64,000 nucleotides of DNA from Nautilus pompilius. Lineage: Eukaryota; Mollusca; Cephalopoda; Nautilida; Nautilidae. Position 1 is the first letter of the stretch; each line of letters opens with the position of its first letter. Under the pieces are notes generated by a model. That model was not told the DNA's origin and ran no database searches. It saw only the letters and a program-made list of their open reading frames with translations. Below, in pieces: positions 20,101-64,000 of the stretch. Made by a program: the position numbers and the translations under genes. The stretch spans positions 162,518 to 226,517 of the forward strand of contig JACATO010001458.1 in NCBI GenBank assembly GCA_018389105.1, given 5' to 3'.

Positions 20101-23100
20101 CCAGAAATGTTATCTCCCCTGATAAGACCACAGGGTATACAAAATGCCAGAAACTCACTATGCTCAACAGAAAACTAAAAAGCACTTAATGATTTGCATT
20201 TTCTGATGAATAAGAAGAGCAATACATGTTGGATTGTTGAAAATGGATCAAAACAAAACCTAATAAGAACTCTCAACCACTGTTTTTAGATCACAGAAGG
20301 CAGTAGTGCTATGATATAGGCTGCAATTTGGCATAGGGTGTCTTAACTTTTCTGGGTACATTGCCATCTTAAAGACATCGCCTACCATATTTTCAATAGG
20401 GAATATTAAGATTCATTTCCTGTGTATTTTTTTTTCAGAAGGATGGCACTAAATGGCAGTCTGAAAGAAGAATAAAGGTGTTTAACCTACTCCTTTCCTG
20501 TATCCCTAAATCCTTAGATAAAGCCAACTAAACATCTAGATCAACATCATACCAATATGAAGGAATTAAAAGGTCTCTCAAATATGGGAGGACTAATATA
20601 AAAATCGCAAAAGGAGGCTTAACCAAATATTAAAATAAAGAACTTCACTCTATTGTTTTTCTTTGTGTGTCATTTTCTGCAGCAATCATACTGTACAGAT
20701 AGTCAAATTATTATCAGAGAGTCCTTTGTATACATTAGGGCAGGTCGATGTTGACACAGGAGTGTGAGTAAGCAATCAGTAGTTGCATTTCCATGTATAA
20801 TACGTTAAAATCACAAATATGAGTTTAACTTGAATATCTTTTTGCGGATTTTGAAATAACTGTTTAATTTTACTTTTTCACTAGTGTTTTCGGTACATGT
20901 AACCATTTTTTTTCAACTGTCCTTGTCTTGCTATGCTTTAAAAGTCAATGTTACGGACCACTGCGTGTCCAGCCCCCTATTATATATATATTTATAGTTT
21001 AAGGACGGTTCTCTGTGTTTATTTTAGAAAATATACGGTGTATTGCCTTGCGTCGACGGCGGACTGGAATCTTGCTTATAGTGTCATTGCGAGGCCGTGT
21101 TTTGCATAGTAACTTACTCTGTAATAATAATTATTTTAGTGTGTGTTTCTATTATTATCATCGGAAAAAGGGGGGAGGATTATGAGTATATTACAAGCTG
21201 AAGACAAGAGTTTGTAACATCATTAATTTATATATCAGATTTTAATATTGAATTTAATTACATTTAAGGTTGTTTGAGATATTTTTGAAAAAATGCCGAA
21301 AGTGAAAACAACGCCGCTAACAAGAAAGAAAAGTGAAGAGAAATATGGCGGTGGTCCTTGTGATTTAGTGCTCACAGATCCCAGCACCTACAGACAATTG
21401 ATTCAATATTATTATTATCTAGAATGTGCCGATCCCTGTGCAGATTTTTGGGCTAAAGTGCAGCATGTTACCAGGGACTTGAAATCAATTTGGTTGTCTG
21501 TGAATCCAAGATTACCATTAATTCATGAAAAATCCATTGACAGAAAAGTTAAAGATCTCTTTGTGACTGTGAAAGACATAAATCGCAAGCATGCTAAAGC
21601 AAATGCTAAGCGTAATCTGGATTCTAAGTTGGACAAACTCTTTGATATATCAGCCTGTTCCTGTCCTCTGGAAATTGTGCCTTGCAACGATTCTAGGATA
21701 TATTGCAAAAAAGACAAATGCACAAAAGAACACATCATCTGCATTTGTCCAGCAGCTGCAAAGGTGCCAATTGAAGAAAGAGCATATCTTCGAGATCAGC
21801 GTTCAAAAACAGGACCCAAGGGAGCATTTCAGATGTCTTCGGTGGACATATCTGCTGCCAAAAGAGATAGGAGAGCTAAACTGAGAGAGCAACATGTCTT
21901 ATCTCAGGAGGACATTGAATTAGCAGGACCTTCTACACAGCCTACAGATATCCCTGAACAATCAAATTCTGAGGTTCGTGTTTTTTTTTCTTTGCCTTAG
22001 TATATATGAACTAAACGATCATTACCTTGTATGCTATGTTAGTATTTCGAATCACAACTACTTCATGCAAAAATTAATGCATTTTTTCTTGTATCTTAAT
22101 CTGCTGAAGAAGTAATATTCCCTATCTAATCTTTTGTGATTCTTACATTTTCAGGGAGATGAATGGCAGCCTAACAGGAGGACTTCAGGAGACTACAACC
22201 TTCTCAAGTTTCCCAGATATGCTATGGAGCTTGTCAGAGCTGAATGTTCCTCCAGTCTTGGGGCAGCTCTTGGTAATGCCTTGCTCTATGACATCAAACA
22301 CCTATTGAGGCCAGAGGTTGACATTAATCAAATCTTAATTGACAAGTGTAAGTTAGACAGGGCTAAATCAAAAGTAAGAGTAATTAGTGAAGAAGTTGAG
22401 TCAGAGATGAAGACACACCTCGTTTGCATGGGTGTAGATGGAAAGCTTGATGATAAAACCTTGACATATAAGGAAACAGAAGCACAAGAAGGGGGAAATG
22501 TTCTCAAAAAGTGTGTTGCTACAGAACATCATCTCACATTCACATATGAAGATGGAAAATCTCCAGGCACCTATTTGACCCACAGAACAATACCTGTTGT
22601 AGGTGCTACTGGCGATGTTCTTGCTCAGGAAGCATTCAGTGTTCTTCAAGAATATGACAGCCTTGAGAGTATACATGCTATTCTTCTTGACAATACAGCA
22701 ACAAACACTGGTTCTAAGAGTGGTTTGGTGGTAAAGCTAGAAGAAATTCTTGGGAGGAAGCTGCACACAATTGGCTGTGCCCTTCATCAAAATGAACTTC
22801 CACTAAGAGCCCTATTTAAAAAACTGGATGGAACAACAACTGGCCCAAGAAGCTTCAATGGACCCCTTGGGAAAAGGTGCTTAGAAGATATTCATGGTGA
22901 ACCACAAGTACAGTTTGAGCCAGTTCAAACACCAATTACTGATGAGTACATTCCAGATGAGGTACTGAAGGATCTCAGTCATAATCAAAGGCTTCTCTAT
23001 GAATATTGTAAGGGTATCGGAGTGGGAAGAGTAGATGATAGATGGGCAGCCTGGAAAATAGGTCCACTCAACCATGCACGATGGTTAACACTTGCTATAC

Positions 23101-26100
23101 GACTTCTTTGTCTATACACACGAGACAACAGTCCAAACAAGAATCTGACAAAATTAATCCAATACATCGTCAAGGTTTATGCTCCCTCATGGTTCAGCTT
23201 AAAGATGTCCTCTAAACTACATGATTCACCTCGCATTCTTTTCTCTACCATCAACCACTTGAAACTGATTCAGTTTGATGATGTGAGACGCATTGTAAAA
23301 CAAAATATTCAGGGGAATGCTTTCTGCCTGCTACCTGCAAACTTCCTTTACGCCATGGTGAAAGATGATGATGACCAGATCAGAAATCTTGGACTTCACA
23401 CAATTCTTACTCTCAGACGCAGGTATTGTTTGCAAAATTTGTTATTCTAGATATTTTTATTTTCAAAATAATATATTAAGATTTGAACAGAATACTTAGG
23501 CAACGTCTGTGGAATTTTTATATTTCGAATTTTCAGAGCAAAAATAATAAGGAAATAGTTTTGATTATTAGGCCGATATTATTAATATACATTTTTTTTA
23601 TTTCCAGAATGAACAGCAGCCAAGAAATGGAAAAGAAAATTCCTCCAGTGAACTGGGACGCTGACACCTGGCCAGAGCTTATTGACCTTCCTGACGCTGG
23701 TACAATGGAGCCACCAACTACACAACACTTTTCTGATGAGGAAATCCAGACCTTCATCAACAAGAGCACAAAGCCGGATATTCCAAACCTACCATGTCAT
23801 TCTCAGAGCATTGAAAGGAGTGTAAAGTTAGTGACAGAAGCTTCTCATTCAGTGTATGGGTTTGAGGCCCGACACAGATCTATCCTTACGAAACTGCTGA
23901 GCAGGAAAATGCGTCCAGTGTTTATGTCAAAAGGACATTATTCTCAGTCATATGATCATTTATATTCCTAGTTTTATTGGGTCATTATGGAAATATATTG
24001 TTCTCTTTTCCAAATGTTATGTAACTTATGATAAAAAATATAGAATATGAAATAAACTTGAAACACAATTAAACTTTAATCGCAAATCCGCAAGCGGAAC
24101 ATTAACCTAAAAGCCTAATTTTTTTTTTATTGTGTACTACTTGAATAGATGCAACTACTGTATACTTACTCATATTGCGATTTTTAAAAAAGTTGAAAAT
24201 CGACCTGCCCTAGTATACATACACATTTTATATATAGAATATCTTTCATCACTTGGTTAAGGTGAAGCTAAGACACCTTTTATATAAAAAAAAAACACTA
24301 GTGGAGAAAGTATCTTTTGATAGATGTAATCAGTTCTGATGAATTAAAAGCTTACCACAGTTTCTTTCCAAAGAATAATAACCAATCATGGTGAATATTA
24401 TGCGCATATGATTATAGAATTCACTGATCCAAATTCTATGTTTTATAATCGAAAACCAATGACCAACACAAACAAAATATGAAGCCTACAATGATTAGTA
24501 TTATATTTATAGGTTTTTTAAGGTTTCCATAAATTCCATCCAAAATCATTTTTTTTTTAAAAGTAAAAAATATAAATATTTTAAAATAAATAATTTGTGT
24601 TGATTTAACAGCAAATAATAACACTCACTTTCTGTTATCGACATCATAATTTTCAGAATCTTCGGAATACACAAACAAGGCTGAGCCCTGTTTAGGTACA
24701 ACCGTATCCAGGGTCACGTTTTTTATCACTTTCCGTGGAGGTAAGGGAGGTGGTTTTGCTGCTACCATGCCCACTGTCCGCGAAGGGATGGGTGGAGGAG
24801 GAGATTCTGCAGCCTCTGTATCACTCAGTTCATCCTCAACAGTTTTGTAAATCCTTAATGTCACTGGACTTTTCACGTTCGGATTTTCAGGTGGAAGCAC
24901 CAAGCACTTGGCCAGGGGTTTTGGCTCATGAAGTTCCTTCTGTTGGGCCCCAAGCTCAGAATGCCCCGTTTTACATTCCAACCAATCTTCCTTAAACCTC
25001 ACGGCGTAAGGCTCTATGAACTCGTAATGGTCGATATCATCGTACGGACACAATTCCTTGTCCTGTTAAGTAAATAAAAACATTTGTATAAATATGCTAC
25101 CTGCAACTGTTCTTGAAAATCAGAGAACCTCCCCAAAAAACTCTCTAATATATGAAAACAAATTTTAATTTTCGGGTTTTTTTTTTTTAAAAGTTTAAAA
25201 TGTTTCGTTTTAATTTGCAATGCTAAGATTATCTAGAATAAGGACAATATCTACCCTCTTTCCTTTGTCCATCAACATCGACTTCGCTTACATTAGTGAT
25301 CATGTAGCTTTTGCTGGAAAACTTTGCTGAGTAAAGTAGTAGATACAAGTGGCACATCTTCAAAAAAAATTTTAAAAAAAAAAAGTTTCATTCTCAATTT
25401 CTGGCAAAAAAGGGCAGCTAGTTAAGGAGTTTTTTTAAAAAAACTTCCTGCCCCTTTGTCTTTCTTTATCCACACAAATACATTAATAAAGTTCCTGTTT
25501 TTTTTATTACCCAGCTGATGACTCAAATACTTGCCCTGAATTGATTCCAGAAAGACCTAGAGAGACAAAATTTCTCAACCAGTTACCTCAATAAAAAAAT
25601 ACAACTTAAAAACATATCATTTCAGAATTGACTAGTTATCTTAAATACCATGAAAAATATTTTTCTAAAGAAATTTAAAATGCAAAAAAAACTTAAAAAT
25701 AATTAGTAATATTTTTAAAAGATTGCAAATCCTTTTACTTGCAGTTAGCACAAACAGAAAACTAACTGGTAAAAGTTGGCCAGTTAAAAATCTACAGAGC
25801 ATGTTTAAGATTTACAAAAAAAAGAAGAAACAGACAAGATTTGAAATACTCTCCTTGTATTTTAACCAGAGAAGAAAACTTTAAATGCACAGAACAATGA
25901 TGGAGCAGTCATTACAGAAGACATGGTTTCAACCAAGTCATAAACACCCAACAAAGCTGCAGGGCCCGATAGACATGTCCGACGTGAGAGAGACCTCCCG
26001 GGTCCTTGGGGCCCACGGTGTCGGGGGACCGGGCCGTTTGTCGGCTCGACGAACTTCTCTCAACCACGAGGACGACTCGTCAGAGAACAGGCCACTTGTC

Positions 26101-48329: not shown

Positions 48330-49665
48330 ATAGAGGGTGAACTCTCCTCCTCTCTCTTCATCCCTCTCCCCCTCTCTCTGTCTCTCCCTCCCCCTCTCTC
48401 TCTGTCCCTGTCTCTCCCTCCCTCTCTCTCTGTCCCTGTCTCTCCCTCCCTCGCTCTCCCCTCCCCCCGTCTCTCCCTCCCTCTCTCTCCCTCCCCCCGT
48501 CTCTCCCTCCCTCTCTCTCCGTCCCTGTCTCTCCCTCCTCTCTCTCCCTCCCTCTCTCTCCGTCCCTGTCTCTCCGTCCCTGTCCCTCTCCCCTCCTCTC
48601 TCTCCGTCCCTGTCTCTCCCTCCCTCTCTCTCCGTCCCTGTCTCTCCGTCCCTGTCTCTCCTCCTCCCTCTCTCTCCGTCCCTGTCTCTCTCCCTCCCTC
48701 TCTCCGTCCCTGTCTCTCTCTCCCCCCTCTCTCTCCGTCCCTCCCTCTCTCTCCGTCCCTGTCTCTCCGTCCCCCCCTGTCTCTCCCGCCCTCTCCTCCG
48801 TCCTGTCCTCTCCCTCCCTCCTCTCTCCGTCCCTGTCTCTCTCTCCCTCCCTCTCTCTCCGTCCCTGTCTCTCTCTCCCTCCCTGTCCTCTCCCTCCCTG
48901 TCTCTCCGTCTCTCCGTCCCTGTCTCTCTCTCCCTCCCTCTCTCTCCTCCCTCCCTGTCCTCTCCCTCCCTGTCTCTCCGTCCCTGTCTCTCTCTCCCTC
49001 CCTCTCTCTCCCTCCCTCTCTCTCTCTCCGTCCCTGTCCTCTCTCTCTCTCCTCCCTTCTCTCTCCCTCCCTGTCTCTCCGTCCCGTCTCTCCCTCTCCC
49101 TCCCTCCCTGTCTCTCTCCTCCCTGTCTCTCCGTCCTGTCTCTCTCTCCCTCCCTCCTCTCCCTCCCTCTCTCTCTCTCCGTCCCTCTCTCTCTCCCTCC
49201 CTGTCTCTCCCTCCCTGTCCTCTCGTCCGTCCCTGTCTCTCTCTCCCTCCCTCTCTCTCTCTCCGTCCCTGTCTCTCCCTCCCTCTCTCTCCCTCCCTCT
49301 CTCTCCGTCCCTGTCTCTCCCTCCCTCTCTCTCCGTCCCTGTCTCTCCGTCCCTGTCTCTCCCTCCCTCTCTCTCCGTCCCTGTCCCTCCGTCCCTGTCT
49401 CTCCCTCCTCTCTCTCCGTCCCTGTCTCTCTCCTCCCTCCTCCTCTCCCTCCCTCTCTCTCCGTCCCTGTCTCTCTCTCCGCCCTCTCCTCCGTCCCTGT
49501 CTCTCTCTCCGTCCCTGTCTCTCTCTCCCTCCCTGTCTCTCCCTCCCTCTCCCCTCTCTCTCTGTCCCTGTCTCTCCCTCCCTCTCCCCTCTCTCTCTGT
49601 CCCTGTCTCTCCCTCCCTCTCCCCTCTCTCTCTGTCCCTGTCTCTCTCCCTCCCTCTCCTTCTTT
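48330..49665. repeat. 1.3-kb CT-rich microsatellite tract
   Basis: Almost pure pyrimidine on the plus strand, built from irregular mixtures of CTCTCTCC, GTCCCTGT and CTCCCTCC units. The long open frames on both strands (Ser/Pro/Leu or Arg/Glu/Gly only) are artefacts of the repeat. The strand asymmetry could allow triplex or H-DNA structure (inference). Confidence 0.95.
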
Positions 49666-50048: not shown

Positions 50049-50105
50049 ATGATTTTTTCACCCTTTGCGCTTATGTTTCTGCTGTTGGCCACTTTCCAGC
50101 TCCAG
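50049..50105 (+). CDS. Prokineticin-like gene, exon 1: signal peptide
   Basis: Nineteen codons from ATG to CTCCAG|GTACGT, phase 0. The hydrophobic core (FALMFLLLATF) followed by QLQ is a textbook signal peptide, and the TATA box lies 61 bases upstream of the ATG. Confidence 0.75.
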
Positions 50106-52772
50106 GTACGTAACACACGTTACTCTCTTTTCCTCCTTTTATTTAAGGAAGTGTTGTCTTTTTTTGGTAAATGGGCTCTCGGTGAAACTATTTTAATAAG
50201 CAACTAAGAATCACACACACAACAGCTAATTCTTTTCAAATTCGCATCTGATCGCTGCTTAATTATACCTTGGCACTGGCCCAGCAGATATTGCGTATAC
50301 AAATTATAATATCTGAATAACAGAGAACATCTGTAAGACTGACTATACGTCCACGCAAAATCGGTATTGCTTCGTGTCCCTTTCTGTTTAGAATCGGCCT
50401 CCATCCGAATTTCAAAGCTTAACGTACCTTTGCGAACGACCACTGCCAGCATTTTAATCTATTCACTCTATTATTATTATTAAATTTTACAAAGAGGTCG
50501 AGGGGCCCACCGGTGGATGCCCCAGGTTTCTCTCGACACCCGAGATACAAAACCTCCGTAACTCGAGCGATCGGAATTCGGATCGCTCATACCTGTCACA
50601 CCTGAGCGGTCCGGGCCACCTCCCGGCGCCTCATCCGCGCGGCACCTGTCTCACGAAGCAGCGGCAGTCGTGTGGGACGGAGTGATCGCAACACGTCGAC
50701 ATTATCAAGCTCGTAATGCGGAGGGTAGAGAAGCTAAAGTCAGCTGACGGCTTCACGAAAAGAAATTTTTTCAAAAAAAAAAAATGGCCGCATACGAAAT
50801 ACGCACCGGGTTTGTATCAGATTGTTGTCGGGACGGATTAATTCTAAACAGTGGCCCTCTTTGAAATTCGGGGACAGATGTTCCTGGTTGTAAAAGGAGA
50901 AGATCTGAGCAAGGTGTTGCGGGTTGTGGGGAAGGCGATAGCGCGAGTGATCTGAAGGGGCTGCTGTCGTCCGGCTGGAGAGGAGGAGGAGGTTTACACG
51001 GGACTGGGCGCACCCCGTCACCGGCCGGGAACCAGTCAAAGGAAACAATGCTGGCGACGTTTAAAAATAAACAATAAAACAGAACAATAGCAGATAAACG
51101 AAGCACCTTTAAAAAAAAAGGTATATTTATCTGGAACGTAAAATGTTGCTTAGCACCATCGGTGCGTGCTGGGTTAATTTGGCTAGAACCGGCCGGTCTT
51201 TAAATATATTGGGGAACGGCAGGAGGCGGAAACCATGAGACGGTCTCAATATTCATATATGTGCGCGTTCGCGTTTGTACTCAATGGTCGCTAGAAAAGT
51301 AAACTGTCACGGGCGACATCTAGCGGGAATTTACGGGACAGCGTACAGCGCTAATCTCATAGGCTTTAAGAAAGTGTAGTGGGGGGCTGGGCTGAAGGGG
51401 CAGCGCGAGGAGGAGTTAAATAGTGTAGACCTACCTAGTCCCCATCCGACGCACCACCCTGTTCTTCTCGCGGGCCCACCTCCTTTCCCTTATAGCTCCC
51501 ATCTGCGAGAAGACGCCCTCTATATCGGGACAAAGATGGCCGACACACACACACACACTAGCAAAGAAACTTAATTACTTTCGCTTATTTTGTTGTCCTA
51601 GCCAGCTTCCAGTACCCGCTTTACGGGGAGTTCCATCAGGCAGCGGGCTCCCCGTAGCTGCAGCAGAGGGAGTGACTGCCCGAGCAGCCAGTGCTGTCAG
51701 ATGTTATCCTCGATCAGGAGAAAGAGAAATGTACACCAGACTCTTGGCACCTGTGCAAGTCTTGGCAGAAGGAACCGAAGTAAGTAAATCCGCACTGCAT
51801 CTCTAATTTTGTACGGTTTGCCATTAATCTTTCAAGCAATCGGCACGTTTCCCAACATTTAGAATTAATTAAATGGCTGTAGGTGCGGACTGGATAACTG
51901 TTGGTCCTTCCATCAACTGCAGGCAAGGAACTCCAAGAGCCAAGGACGGGATTTACTTTTGTTGTGTGTAGAGTCCAATGGAAATAACGTTGAGGAAAAT
52001 CCTTTAATCTCACCAGACTGTAGCAAAGATGTGACCTGGAATCACTCGAAAAATAATATCAGTTTAAATATCCTTTGTCCCGGTTTGGACAAAGGGTGTT
52101 CAATGCAGCGAAGCATAGATATTTGGCGACCTTCAATAAGATTTACTTATAGCAGAGTTCGTAGAGTTTTCCAGGCACCGTGCGACCTATATACAGGACA
52201 GCGGTACTTCAACGTTCCGTCTCACGGCTTCCCCCCTTTTTTTGATTTTATATGCAAAAGGGACTTCGCCAACGTCCTTTAGCAGTATCGTCGTAGGAGG
52301 TTTTAACATATACGCTGAGACAAACAGTTCAGTCTTCTAGTAGACTGTCCAACCAAATGGCAAAGGAACTTTGGCATTTCGTAGCGAAAATATCCCAGCC
52401 TTGGAGGGGGTTAAACGTAGGTAAGTTGGCGACAAATTACAACACCCACAGCAAGGAAGATGTCATTGGGGCCCTGTAGATTCTGGTATTCAATGTAGTG
52501 TAATCATCGTTTGGCCGATCAGCAATTAAACACACACCCCTTTTTTTTTTCAGTCGTGAAACTGAATTGCTCTTAGTAAACCCTGTGGCTTCTCTCGGTA
52601 TTTGTGTCACGGCTTCAGTGTGCATAACGCGCTGTATCTAAAAGTAAAATATACCGTGGTGAGTCGGCGCTGCTCGGATAATGGGATCTTTTGTGAACAG
52701 CTGAAGCCGGCATAATTTCAGTTTCCTTGAATTTATGCCGGCTTCAGCTGTTCACAAAAGATCTCATTAGTT

Positions 52773-52805
<33 letters not shown>

Positions 52806-54005
52806 TTATGAAATTTCCTCCAATTCTGATTAAGTTGGATTTTTTCGGTATGGACATTGACGGAAGATGCCTCGTTCCTCTACCTGATTCTTGTCGATTA
52901 TGGTGGCATTTCGTCCGGGTTAGATGAAATCGTTCAGGGTCCCCGTGTCAGCAAAATTGTCAAAATAATTCGTGTTAATTACAATAATTTTTATTTATAG
53001 ATATTTTTTTGAGTGAGGAGAAATGGTAATTTATCCTTTATGATTTGTAAATATATTTATGGCTTGTGCTAAACGTGTGCATAAAAGTATATCCACGGGC
53101 TGCCATGTCTATCAATAAATCATTCAGTATTTCATCGATACTTTTAAGGATAACGTCGTCAAAATTTCTACACAGAGAAAATTGTGTGTAACAATTTATT
53201 CTGTCAATCTCTCTCTCTACACCGACGTCATCTCTCTCTCTCTCTACACCGACGTCATCTCTCTCTCTCTCTACACCGACGTCATCTCTCTCTCTCTCTA
53301 CACCGACGTCATCTCTCTCTCTCTCTACACCGACGTCATCTCTCTCTCTCTCTACACCGACGTCATCTCTCTCTCTCTACACCGACGTCATCTCTCTCTC
53401 TCTACACCGACGTCATCTCTCTCTCTCTCTCTACACCGACGTCATCTCTCTCTCTCTCTCTACACCGACGTCATCTGCAATAAAATAATTCGTAATTCTT
53501 TTTCTGACTGCAGACTGTCCAATCTACAGATTTGGGATCAATGTATCAGGAAAAACGGACGCTGTTGTCTACATGTGCAACTGCAGATCCCATCTCACTT
53601 GCGTACAGAGGAAAAGAATAATACGTAGAGTACCTGCTGACATTGGTAAGTTTGAAAAACATTATATCTATCGTTATCACACACAATTACAGATTAACCG
53701 CTTTGATTAGGTTTTAAATATCCTGCCCTTACTGAACCCTTTACTTTAAATAAAAGGGTCTTCTCTACGTTTGTTTACTTAGAAGTTCAAAAACATTAAC
53801 ACTTAGTTTCGCTAAGAGTCTTTTAAAATATCGACAAGGAAGAAACGGGTTTATTTCTACTTTCTTCGATGCCATTTACTTCACGTATCCGTTAAAATCG
53901 TCTTTTTCACATCTCCCAGGGGTACAGAGACTACAATTCTTACTGCTGTTATCTTTTTTCTTAGGGAGATGCCGTCGGCCGCGGCGTGCAGGAAGAAGAG
54001 ACTAA
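50049..54005 (+). CDS. Prokineticin/astakine-like secreted ten-cysteine peptide
   Basis: Four exons (50049-50105, 51602-51779, 53514-53645, 53965-54005) splice in agreeing phases (0,1,1) to give 135 residues. Residues 1-19 are a signal peptide (MIFSPFALMFLLLATFQLQ), cleaved near QLQ-PA. The mature part has ten cysteines: C-5-C-4-CC-18-C-9-C-19-C-1-C-5-C-16-C. Vertebrate prokineticins, as I recall them, have C-5-C-4-CC-11-C-9-C-17-C-1-C-5-C-8-C, so all short spacings are identical and only three loops differ. This is the AVIT/colipase-type fold shared by prokineticins (GPCR ligands) and arthropod astakines (haematopoietic cytokines). An N-terminal AVIT is absent, so prokineticin-receptor agonism is not implied. 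The tail RCRRPRRAGRRD is very basic. AATAAA is at 54155. Confidence 0.8.
51602..51779 (+). CDS. Prokineticin-like gene, exon 2: first five cysteines
   Basis: Acceptor TTGTTGTCCTAG, donor CCGAA|GTAAGT. It enters in phase 0 and leaves in phase 1. It encodes CSRGSDCPSSQCC, an extended arginine-rich loop with an RRKR furin-type site, and TCASLGRRN. The nine residues to the next cysteine, across the splice junction, match prokineticin spacing. Confidence 0.8.
52679..52769. repeat. Near-perfect 37-bp hairpin in intron 2
   Basis: Arms 52679-52715 and 52733-52769 are complementary over 37 positions with one mismatch and a 17-base loop. The central arm sequence is CAGCTGAAGCCGGCATAA. It is followed by A- and (AT)-rich tracts. 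It could be a fold-back element, a MITE remnant or a long hairpin transcript. Confidence 0.85.
53207..53477 (+). repeat. Minisatellite with (CT)n and ACACCGACGTCAT units
   Basis: About ten copies of a 25-29 bp unit made of a CT run plus ACACCGACGTCAT, ending 36 bases before exon 3 of the prokineticin-like gene. CGACGTCAT differs from a full cAMP-response element (TGACGTCA) by one base. Confidence 0.9.
53514..53645 (+). CDS. Prokineticin-like gene, exon 3: CxC module
   Basis: Acceptor CTGACTGCAG, donor CATTG|GTAAGT, phases 1 in and 1 out. It reads NCPIYRFGINVSGKTDAVVY then MCNCRSHLTCVQRKR. C-x-C-5-C is the diagnostic second half of the prokineticin/astakine pattern. Confidence 0.8.
53965..54005 (+). 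CDS. Prokineticin-like gene, exon 4: last cysteine and stop
   Basis: Acceptor TTTTTTCTTAG, phase 1. It encodes GRCRRPRRAGRRD and the stop TAA at 54003-54005. The exon, its acceptor and intron 3 recur almost unchanged at 63689-63999. Confidence 0.7.
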
Positions 54006-54154
54006 GTCCGACCGAGATAACCAAGACCATGACCTGGCTTTCCTCTCATTCTTACCCGACGGATTTTTGTGTAAAATCCTTAAGTGTAATGGAAAAAAAC
54101 ACACGCCTTTAATTTACTATTCTTTATCCTATGCATCCGTTAAAACTTTTGCTT

Positions 54155-58046: not shown

Positions 58047-61000
58047 TCAAGGCAGTTGTGCATTATTCCGGCTGTTTAGGAATTCCTCCATCATCAGGTA
58101 GCAGAGCTCATACTGATCCTGATCGTGGATGAAGTCGGGCTGCACGAACTTCAGAAGAAGTTTTACAGTGGATACGACGTTGACAACATTTTCCCTGCCC
58201 GCTCGTTCTGTTAGGTTCCACACAGCACAAAACAAAGCACTTTGCTGGTATCCGTTGGATATGATACAAAGACGTTTAGGACAGTATTTGGCATGGATTT
58301 CCTTTACAAAACACACGAGGGATAGAATGTGATCGCGAGATTTTGGTGGGTTGCTATTTTCACAAATCGCATTCCGATGTACCACCTTGAGTTTGTGACT
58401 AACAGATTTCTTCACAAACAACACTAAGTCAGACATTGCAAATAATCCGGATTCCTGTCCTCTCTACGGATAACAAAGAAATGTCCATATTTCAGACACC
58501 GGTTTTCCTTTAATGACACCAGAAAATTAGTCATTTCATTACTACTGTCTTCTACCAAAACAATCAGATCAATCCCGTTTTCTAAATATACTCCAAATGT
58601 TCTCTGTCGAATACATTTCATTAGTCGAAATGAGTAGAAAGAAAAATTTTGAAAAGTAACTTGGAATTATAAAACTTTCCATGGAAACCGAGTTTGGAGG
58701 AGAATTACAAGCACCAATTTGTGTTCTTCTGTTCATGTCGGCGGCGTATAACTCCGTGTAGCTGAAGGTTCTTCTATTGATTTCATACGTACTTTTCTGT
58801 AGTAAATTAAACTCGTATCGAACTCTTGTCTGATCGGAAGGTGCTTCCTGATTAACTTTACTTAGAATATCTGTAAAATTCTCAACCGGATAAGAAGAAT
58901 GTGAGAGTAGCATGGCTTCTCGAAGTATTTTATGCAGGAAGTTGTATTGGATCTTGTTTTCTACGACATTTGTCCTTTGACTACGAATCTCCGTGACACA
59001 TTTTCTGACATCGATCTTCCTACTCTTCTTCTCCATGTCGAGTAGATAGTCAAGGGCTATAAAAGTTCCAGTTCTTCCAATGCCTTGACTTCCATGAACA
59101 ATCATTGGTCCACCAGATTCATCAGGATTAAGATGGTAAACTTTGTCTCTAAAGAATAACAGTTCTGTCGATATTCGTGGAATGTAATGAATTGGCCAGG
59201 ATTGAAAATGAAACTGGCGGATTGTTCGACGTTCGTTTTCGAAGACAACAGAAAAAGTTCTCGAACAACACATTCCGCAAAGGATTCATTAGCGACCATT
59301 TCCACAGAAAGGAGCCCATAATGGCGAATTCCACTGTCCGGCCAATACTTCTTACAGAGCACCGTGCATTTTTCCTGTAGACATGTCAGCATGATAATCT
59401 TGAAGGAATCCATTTGCCAAACCATTGACCAGAAATCCACGATTTCGTCAAAACTCTGAGGTGCAGCAGAAGCAATATATTTGCACTGGCCATTATATCC
59501 TTGTATAAAAGAGGCATTTAAATACCTGGTGTAACCACAGTTTCTATAAATGGAAAGATGTGCTAAATCTTTATGTTCGTGCCTATCTCTTTCATCTTTA
59601 GATAACATATCTTCTCGGATAATACACACATTATGCTGGATGATTAGATCATTCTGGTAAAAATGGATTCCAGGCAATGTGTTATACTCGTCTTCAGTGA
59701 AAGTCGGAAATGGTATTCTTCTGCTAGTGAGCTGCAGCTCTTGAACGAAGCATGCAATGAACCAGGTACGCAATACACTACCTTTCATGTAGACAAACAG
59801 CAAGAATATTGAAGATAAGCAAGCGGCAACCACGGTGAGTAGAGGGTTAATCATTAATCTAGCGAACGTACTGCCGTCCATTTGATGAAATAAATGGCTA
59901 TTATTGAAGGGTTTTATATCGTCACCTATTGTATTGCATATAGATATTTTGGTGCCTTTGTCACATCGATTAACCGGACACATACCGTTGACGTGGTTAC
60001 AATGTTTCTTAAACGGACATTGCACGCACTTTCTTTCACAGAACATACCGTAGTATCCTGATCGGCATTTCTCGGTGCATTTAATACCTTTCCAACCCGG
60101 GTCACAGACTTCGGCTAGACAATGCCCATTTGATTTCCTGCAGGCCTGGCGATGTATGCAGTGTCCACACCTCTTCAAACATTTTTGTCCATACCACCCA
60201 TTCGGACACGTTATATTGCAATGGTCATTCATCCACCCACTCTTACATTTAGCGCCTCGACAAACACCGGAAATGGAACTGCATGTTGGTGCAAAGCAGT
60301 GACCGCATTTTTGGGAGCAGTTGAGACCGTATTGACCTTTGAAACAAGGATGTTTACAGCGAGAACCCCTCCATCCAGGATTACATCCACCGGTGTAACA
60401 ATCCCCGTTTATGCTATTACATCCACTGACGTTGGAACAATGACCACATCTCAGGGTACATTTCCGACCATACCATCCTGCAAAACATCTACAAGATGGG
60501 TCTTTGTTTCCTTGTTTGCAATGACAGGAACCGTCTGGATAATCGCACGGTTCCCTGCAATGACCACACGGTTGTAGACAATATAACTGGTACCAGCCAG
60601 CTGGACAAGCTCCTGAAATGTTGCATTTTGATGCTGTTTCTGCATCCACTTGGTAGATGTATTTCCCTGGAAATCCCACATTAGATCCGACGAATAAATC
60701 AACATCATTTGTATTACTTTTCACAATTTCTTTCTTACAGGTAGGTATATGTATGTTAAAGTATGGATAACGTTGTTGTTTTTTTCTTCCTAAATTGTGC
60801 ATGTGTAAGTTCATTATCTGGAATACGTGCTTTTCGTTCCAGATGATAACTATTTGTACAGTTACGTTTTGACTTACAATCTGTTTTAGAGCATTGGTAG
60901 CAGTTACCAACAATGCGTTAGTTCCTTGAAATGTTTGGTGATATGGCACATAGGTTCGAATTTCCTTTGTGGCTTTTTCTAAAATTGTTGGATGGTTACC

Positions 61001-61305
61001 TTCATGAATCCATGCATTCCAGTTCGAATAAGATAATTTTTAATCTAAATTAACACTTTTTTCACCGTTTTCCTTAGTGAAAATAACCCTTTATAGAACA
61101 AATCATAAGAATGGTATTTAATTCCAAAATAGTATAAGGTCGATTTTAGTTTTCGAAATTGAATTTCAATTTTTAAAAAACGTGTGGTTTTGGGAAACGG
61201 ATATAGGTCTTCTGTATAAAAATGAATGGCAGAAAATACTAAGTTTACGAAGATGTAGACACTTAGTAAAGTTGATTCCATCAGCAGTATGGTGCGTGGC
61301 AACAT
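58047..61305 (-). pseudogene. Receptor-type tyrosine phosphatase with MEGF-like ectodomain, catalytically dead, frame-broken
   Basis: In order on the minus strand: a signal-peptide-like start (61280 region, LLSVYIFVNLVFSA), an unassigned N-terminal domain, and five or six Cys-rich EGF-like repeats of MEGF/SREC type (60600-59930; GWYGRKCTLRCGHC). A transmembrane helix follows (about 59850-59785; LLTVVAACLSSIFLLFVYM), then PTP domain 1 (59730-58860; YLNASFIQGY, YIASAAPQSFDEIVDFWSMV) and a degenerate domain 2 (58620-58050; DQYELCYLMMEEFLNS). The WPD loop reads WPI (59190-59192) and the P-loop reads HGSQGIGRTG, with Gly for the catalytic Cys (59091-59093). Frame breaks occur at the A5 run 59252-59256, near 58620-58660 and near 58430. 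Near 61040 there is a break or a short intron. Almost no introns in 3.2 kb suggests a retrocopy. Breaks could partly be sequencing errors, but the missing residues are not. Confidence 0.75.
59102..61020 (-). CDS. Longest open part of the receptor phosphatase copy
   Basis: Continuous frame through the N-terminal domain, EGF-like repeats, transmembrane helix and first half of PTP domain 1. Counted from the GTG at 60949, cysteines follow the MEGF pattern from about residue 115 to 338, the membrane helix is about 367-388, and the phosphatase domain begins about 405. Reading continues upstream of 60949 (SNWNAWIHEGNHPTILEKAT) without an ATG. In the receptor family such proteins remove phosphate from tyrosines at the plasma membrane; this copy cannot, for lack of catalytic residues. 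Confidence 0.65.
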
Positions 61306-63688: not shown

Positions 63689-63999
63689 CTGCCCTTACTG
63701 AACCCTTTACTTTAAATAAAAGGGTCTTCTCTACGTTTGTTTACTTAGAAGTTCAAAACATTAACACTTAGTTTCGCTAAGAGTCTTTTAAAATATCGAC
63801 AAGGAAGAAACGGGTTTATTTCTACTTTCTTCGATGCCATTTACTTCACGTATCCGTTAAAATCGTCTTTTTCACATCTCCCAGGGGTACAGAGACTACA
63901 ATTCTTACTGCTGTTATCTTTTTTCTTAGGGAGATGCCGTCGGCCGCGGCGTGCAGGAAGAAGAGACTAAGTCCGACCGAGATAACCAAGACCATGACC
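63689..63999 (+). repeat. Near-identical direct copy of intron 3 and exon 4
   Basis: These 311 bases match 53723-54034 with a single one-base difference in an A-run, and include the acceptor TTTTTTCTTAG and the terminal coding exon of the prokineticin-like gene. The last window base (64000) already differs. The equivalent exon would be 63930-63970. Upstream sequence differs at once, so the boundary is sharp. Confidence 0.9.
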
Positions 64000-64000
64000 A

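Follow-up and report, generated by a model that had tools for sequence, protein, structure and literature searches.

The locus described here lies in a 64,000-nucleotide stretch of the Nautilus pompilius genome (contig C1387, GenBank JACATO010001458.1, positions 162518-226517; hereafter the window), which extends to the end of its contig. The locus is a small four-exon gene for a ten-cysteine protein, which is predicted from its sequence to be secreted (Table 1). Four short coding segments had been proposed in the original prediction, and their coordinates, lengths and junctions have been confirmed. They join in frame through consensus GT-AG junctions with agreeing phases (0, 1 and 1), donors gtacgt, gtaagt and gtaagt, and polypyrimidine-ag acceptors, giving 135 amino acids and a stop codon. 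The predicted signal peptide and ten cysteines are likewise present in the spliced translation: the product starts with MIFSPFALMFLLLATFQLQ, a signal-like stretch of 19 residues, and continues with 116 residues in which the ten cysteines are spaced 5, 4, 0, 18, 9, 19, 1, 5 and 16. The first exon was the sole candidate within 6.6 kb upstream of exon 2 when an ATG, a hydrophobic stretch and a phase-0 donor-like site were demanded, and the TATA box that had been reported upstream was found. The mature part is strongly basic, with an isoelectric point (pI) of 11.6 and 27 lysine or arginine residues against 4 aspartate or glutamate residues, and contains three XBBXBX-type stretches under a loose pattern, a kind of motif with which prokineticins are reported to bind heparin (PMC8877203).

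Table 1. Features of the gene, the tandem unit and the related loci (window positions unless a contig is given).
Feature	Position	Strand	Remarks
TATA box TATATAAA	49988-49995	+	Last base 54 bp upstream of the ATG; consensus match only
Exon 1, coding part	50049-50105 (57 nt)	+	19-residue hydrophobic signal-like peptide; ends in phase 0
Exon 2	51602-51779 (178 nt)	+	Cys1-Cys5; RRKR (residues 58-61) inside the 18-residue Cys4-Cys5 loop; ends in phase 1; related exons at C2027
Exon 3	53514-53645 (132 nt)	+	Cys6-Cys9 with CNCRSHLTC core; ends in phase 1; two related exons at C2027
Exon 4	53965-54005 (41 nt)	+	Cys10, then an Arg-rich tail and the stop codon; C2027 has a candidate counterpart
Polyadenylation signal AATAAA	54155-54160	+	Begins 150 bp downstream of the stop codon; consensus match only
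Left edge of tandem unit, segment copy 1 with exon 4	53723-54035	+	
Orphan second copy of exon 4, exact	63930-63970	+	Inside repeat 63689-64000
Two-domain relative	C2027:826490-830468	-	Two ten-cysteine prokineticin-like domains in tandem, apparently in one gene
Two-exon relative	C2312:6663-10180		Candidate signal-like exon about 3.2 kb upstream of an intronless ten-cysteine domain

The cysteine pattern of exon 2 is rare by chance. In the six-frame translation of the window, Cx5Cx4CC occurs once, in exon 2, compared with an average of 0.12 and a maximum of 1 in 60 windows resampled with a first-order Markov chain, and the longer Cx5Cx4CCx18C occurred in none of these 60. No such rarity holds for Cx1Cx5C in exon 3, which has 14 occurrences in the window and an average of 3.5 in the resampled windows. 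Stronger proof of a real gene than motif rarity comes from conservation, as relatives are present at two other loci, one of which (C2027) matches both the spacing and the intron phases. With the cysteines held in place and left out of the scoring, the similarity of the window peptide to three relatives was reached in 0, 0 and 1 of 3000 shuffles per relative (z = 8.0, 5.3 and 3.4).

These relatives emerged from searches of the genome (727.6 Mb). The window protein returned itself, the exon 4 copies and, with weaker scores, three further matches; C2027:830325-830438 matches it over 38 residues at 45% identity (E = 0.02). Within about 2.2 kb on one strand, C2027 holds a Cx5Cx4CCx18C exon, an exon 3-like segment, and a second exon 2-like and a second exon 3-like segment. 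After joining of the exons, each of its two domains is spaced 5, 4, 0, 18, 9, 15, 1, 5 and 15, and the locus shares with the window gene the spacing 5, 4, 0, 18, 9 as well as introns in phase 1 ahead of Cys6 and Cys10. Cys10 of domain 1 is encoded, in phase 1, at the start of the exon that carries Cys1-Cys5 of domain 2, an arrangement like that of window exon 4. Both domains apparently belong to one transcript, in which exons 829964-829848 and 829295-829137 would be joined. The assignment of its last exon (one of six under a loose filter) and first exon (one of three candidates, two of which have a common donor) is tentative, and the protein has two extra cysteines ahead of domain 1 if the start of exon 2 is placed correctly. 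The C2027 protein in turn finds window exon 2 (45%, E = 0.012) and also C2312:9914-10171 (38%, E = 0.0098), where a single open frame contains ten cysteines spaced 6, 4, 0, 19, 10, 16, 1, 5 and 18. This domain exon starts directly after an ATT-repeat tract. Three PDB entries of PMGL2 that matched the C2312 protein (E 0.1-1.2) are unrelated, as are the loci L020, L021, L022, L034 and L036, which were also examined. The three family loci are a lower bound for the genome. In an alignment of the four domains (A4), an Asp, a Lys-Arg pair in the long loop, a Ser, a Leu, a Pro and a Gly are invariant besides the ten cysteines.

A profile of the A4 alignment gave 12 matches in PDB at E up to 10, headed by Bv8 (0.0022) and MIT1 (0.0045), for which the PDB entries are 2kra and 1imt, and followed by three colipases (0.044-0.055), Dkk2 (0.097), U33-theraphotoxin (0.14), three Dkk1 entries (0.25-0.34) and two unrelated proteins. 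Ten of the 12 are thus prokineticin, MIT1, colipase, Dickkopf or U33-theraphotoxin, the last of which we take to be a colipase-fold protein. These ten all recurred with a profile made without the window sequence, where colipase ranked above MIT1; their persistence indicates that the window gene adds to the family signal and does not borrow it. A control scrambled between fixed cysteines, which aligned imperfectly, had no PDB matches, and a column-permuted control with all ten cysteines aligned had two, both to the unrelated CNL9/Sr35; each control was run once. Among Pfam models, Colipase_C (PF02740, cut-off 23.7 bits) was exceeded by the whole C2027 two-domain protein (27.1 bits), whose single domains scored 20.7 and 11.3. 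Window exon 3 alone scored 14.3 bits (E = 0.046), and the full window protein had no match to this model. From the A4 profile, the controls and the Pfam scores, we conclude that membership of the predicted protein in the colipase-fold superfamily is well supported. Across the genome, PF02740 gave six sub-threshold matches; C2027 exon 3 ranked first, and the remaining five had noise-like translations. Matches of the window protein or its core to Glyco_transf_99 (E = 0.27 and 0.18) and Dumpy_DPY (E = 1.4 and 3.4) were far below cut-off.

The ten cysteines of the window protein stand in the colipase/prokineticin register, and its spacings 5, 4, 0, _, 9, _, 1, 5 are the same as those of Bv8, of vertebrate type, in the PDB alignment. 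The short spacings had been equated with those of vertebrate prokineticins; the equality stands, but the spacings are not specific to prokineticins and fit the colipase-fold superfamily as a whole, including the second cysteine-rich domain (CRD-2) of Dickkopf, which has the same short cysteine spacings. The three other loops differ, with 18, 19 and 16 residues compared with 11, 17 and 8 in vertebrate prokineticins (11 and 17 counted from the Bv8 alignment, 8 being the figure of the original prediction). Colipase and Dickkopf CRD-2 belong to the same superfamily with the same ten-cysteine register, and the colipase, Dkk2 and Dkk1 profile matches extend through Cys10. Their scores are lower than those of the prokineticins, and the window gene lacks a CRD-1 and any lipase-related context.

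As the family of the window protein, the prokineticin branch is the best choice that the sequence offers, though not a decisive one. The proposed prokineticin/astakine-like identity is upheld in so far as the best solved match of the family profile is a prokineticin, but the search of the peptide alone with the prokineticin profile gave no PF06607 match. Several further results count against this placement. At E up to 10, neither the window protein nor its core matched a Pfam prokineticin model or a chain in PDB, and the PF06607 cut-off of 21.6 bits was also missed by the relatives, of which C2027 domain B scored best (12.8 bits). Across the whole genome, PF06607 gave three matches, all sub-threshold, and the translations viewed show no ten-cysteine domain. 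With the A4 profile, the lead of prokineticin over colipase and Dickkopf in PDB is no more than about 4-7 bits, and when the window sequence was left out the unrelated TIM-4 came first (0.056) and Bv8 second (0.4) among 13 matches. The Cys9-Cys10 loop of 16 residues is closer to the 17 of colipase (counted from the PDB alignment) than to the shorter loop of vertebrate prokineticins. Apart from itself, the C2312 protein had a single match in the genome (E = 1.4) and recovered neither of the other two family loci, and its comparison with the window peptide was the weakest in the shuffle test (the one reached once). Placement in prokineticins proper, as opposed to other colipase-fold proteins, is therefore tentative, given the missing profile match, the absence of an AVITG start and the colipase-like Cys9-Cys10 loop. 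Searches with a single-sequence profile overlook such genes, and the family becomes visible only through paralogues in the same genome.

The positions of the introns inside the domain of vertebrate prokineticins apparently differ from those in the window gene. Further comparison relies on published descriptions. The first coding exon encodes 19 residues in both the window gene and human PK1 (PMC8877203). The AVITG(A) N-terminus of vertebrate prokineticins is absent from the window translation, as is any tryptophan equivalent to their receptor-binding Trp24 (PMC8877203). AVITGA is lacking in non-vertebrate members (PMC8398477, PMC8557429). Molluscan prokineticin-like proteins and astakines (Cragi-prokineticin 1-5, CgAstakine and Pomacea Pc-PlP) are described as secreted, with ten cysteines and without AVITGA, like the window protein. 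The latter has the signal-like start, the ten conserved cysteines and the absence of AVITGA by which astakine/prokineticin-like proteins are recognized (PMC8398477), its secretion being predicted. A lophotrochozoan sequence signature of these proteins has also been reported (PMC11521371).

The view that prokineticin-type cytokines are poorly described in lophotrochozoans is not borne out by the literature. Prokineticins are on record for nearly every lophotrochozoan phylum that has been sampled (PMC6425005), and for Platynereis (PMC3890597). The oyster has five, all with a signal peptide except number 5, which are expressed in the digestive gland and less in the male gonad, and a haematopoiesis-promoting oyster astakine is cited (PMC8398477); the apple snail has one prokineticin-like protein of disputed role (PMC9178244). 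Given that breadth, the suggestion of an undescribed secreted signal was overstated: the window protein is best read as a divergent new member of a family known from oysters, snails and worms, and no new kind of molecule. A phrase search of the literature for 'two prokineticin domains' gave no match, which at phrase level does not imply absence from print.

Taken together, the sequence evidence makes it likely that the locus is a functional gene and encodes a secreted ten-cysteine protein, strongly basic in charge, which belongs within the colipase-fold superfamily to the prokineticin/astakine branch and would most likely act as a cytokine. The signal peptide would be removed in the endoplasmic reticulum, and five disulfides would give a compact two-subdomain colipase fold, as suggested by the signal-like start, the ten-cysteine register and homology. 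The protein may then be released into the haemolymph, and its many arginine and lysine residues would retain it on sulfated glycans; such binding is suggested by the basic charge and by the heparin-binding motif reported for prokineticins (PMC8877203). The absence of both AVITG and tryptophan argues against activation of a vertebrate-type receptor, and the protein would presumably have a receptor different from the vertebrate prokineticin G-protein-coupled receptor (GPCR). That no prokineticin-type receptor is known from protostomes (PMC8398477, PMC8557429) counts against this reading; one candidate receptor put forward is the beta subunit of F1-ATP synthase (PMC8398477). From what is known of the oyster astakine, the likeliest role would be that of an astakine-like cytokine for blood-cell production or for gut or immune tissue. 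Because protostome prokineticin/astakine ligands lack a known cognate GPCR (PMC8398477, PMC8557429), each well-defined member helps to test their receivers, and the window locus and its two paralogues offer intact candidates with defined exons, a non-vertebrate-like N-terminus and an apparent two-domain form. We regard as unlikely the more far-reaching idea of a mollusc prokineticin-like subfamily in which a convertase would cut at the invariant Lys-Arg in the enlarged Cys4-Cys5 loop (RRKR in the window protein), so that the ligand would consist of two disulfide-linked chains and have a new internal N-terminus instead of the vertebrate AVITG end, and in which a tandem two-domain ligand could bridge two receptors.

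Among the alternatives, a Dickkopf-CRD2-like or colipase-like secreted protein, acting as a Wnt antagonist or digestive cofactor, keeps a small but appreciable probability. Colipase and Dickkopf follow directly after the prokineticins and MIT1 in the PDB matches of the A4 profile, the whole two-domain paralogue exceeds the Colipase_C cut-off, Dickkopf CRD-2 has identical short spacings, and in all four domains the Cys9-Cys10 loop (15-18 residues) is nearer to that of colipase than to that of vertebrate prokineticins. Exons 1 and 2, however, leave no room for a Dickkopf_N domain (CRD-1), and PF04706 (Dickkopf_N) had nothing over its cut-off across the genome and one sub-threshold match. Both profile searches also placed Bv8 ahead of colipase and Dickkopf, although colipase was above MIT1 in one.

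Quite improbable is a colipase-fold effector of the digestive or salivary gland, a venom-like peptide and no internal signal. It would agree with the spider peptide among the PDB matches, with the digestive-gland expression of the oyster members (PMC8398477) and with weak matches of three of the four domains, not including that of the window, to the MIT-like atracotoxin family (best E = 0.058); yet the atracotoxin matches were all below the curated cut-off, and the toxin matches would be accounted for by a shared fold rather than a shared use. That the exons are a chance or decayed in-frame set without a working gene is very improbable: exon 4 does lie within a segment that is duplicated and has orphan copies elsewhere, and the diverged window protein has CNC in place of the CPC of the three relatives, but the ten cysteines, all junctions and phases, and the TATA and AATAAA signals are intact, and non-cysteine residues are conserved.

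The gene for the putative prokineticin/astakine-like protein overlaps the edge of a tandem array. The segments 53723-54035 and 63689-64000 are identical at 311 of 312 aligned bases, with one gap, and five further copies of the former lie on C2219, C2451 and C1520. The unit is about 10 kb long in the window, and copies are about 12 kb apart on C2219 and C2451. As the edge of the unit falls in intron 3, exon 4 moves with every unit; each copy of the array edge bears an orphan exon 4, and exons 1-3 are found once in the genome. The small contigs suggest that the array is incompletely assembled. A gene for a receptor tyrosine phosphatase lies on the minus strand of the window's unit (58050-61039) and includes a nidogen-like region. 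It also has a cysteine-rich stretch that resembles EGF on visual inspection, and Y_phosphatase segments in three open frames, which probably represent two domains. The less usual features of this family in the nautilus are the two-domain paralogue, the invariant Lys-Arg in the long loop and the exon 4 copies along the receptor-phosphatase array.

Intron 2 contains a 27-bp minisatellite (53208-53476) whose repeat recurs on many contigs and which took most of the 111 matches in a search of the genome. The same intron has a near-palindromic inverted repeat at about 52679-52769, with an 88% self-match to the other strand. A pyrimidine-rich imperfect repeat tract of 1.3 kb (48342-49658) precedes the TATA box by a few hundred bases. 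Elsewhere in the window, three successive long open frames (21278-23971) had no Pfam match at E up to 0.01. Molluscan haemocyanin domains occur in the genome at two places, with seven at each.

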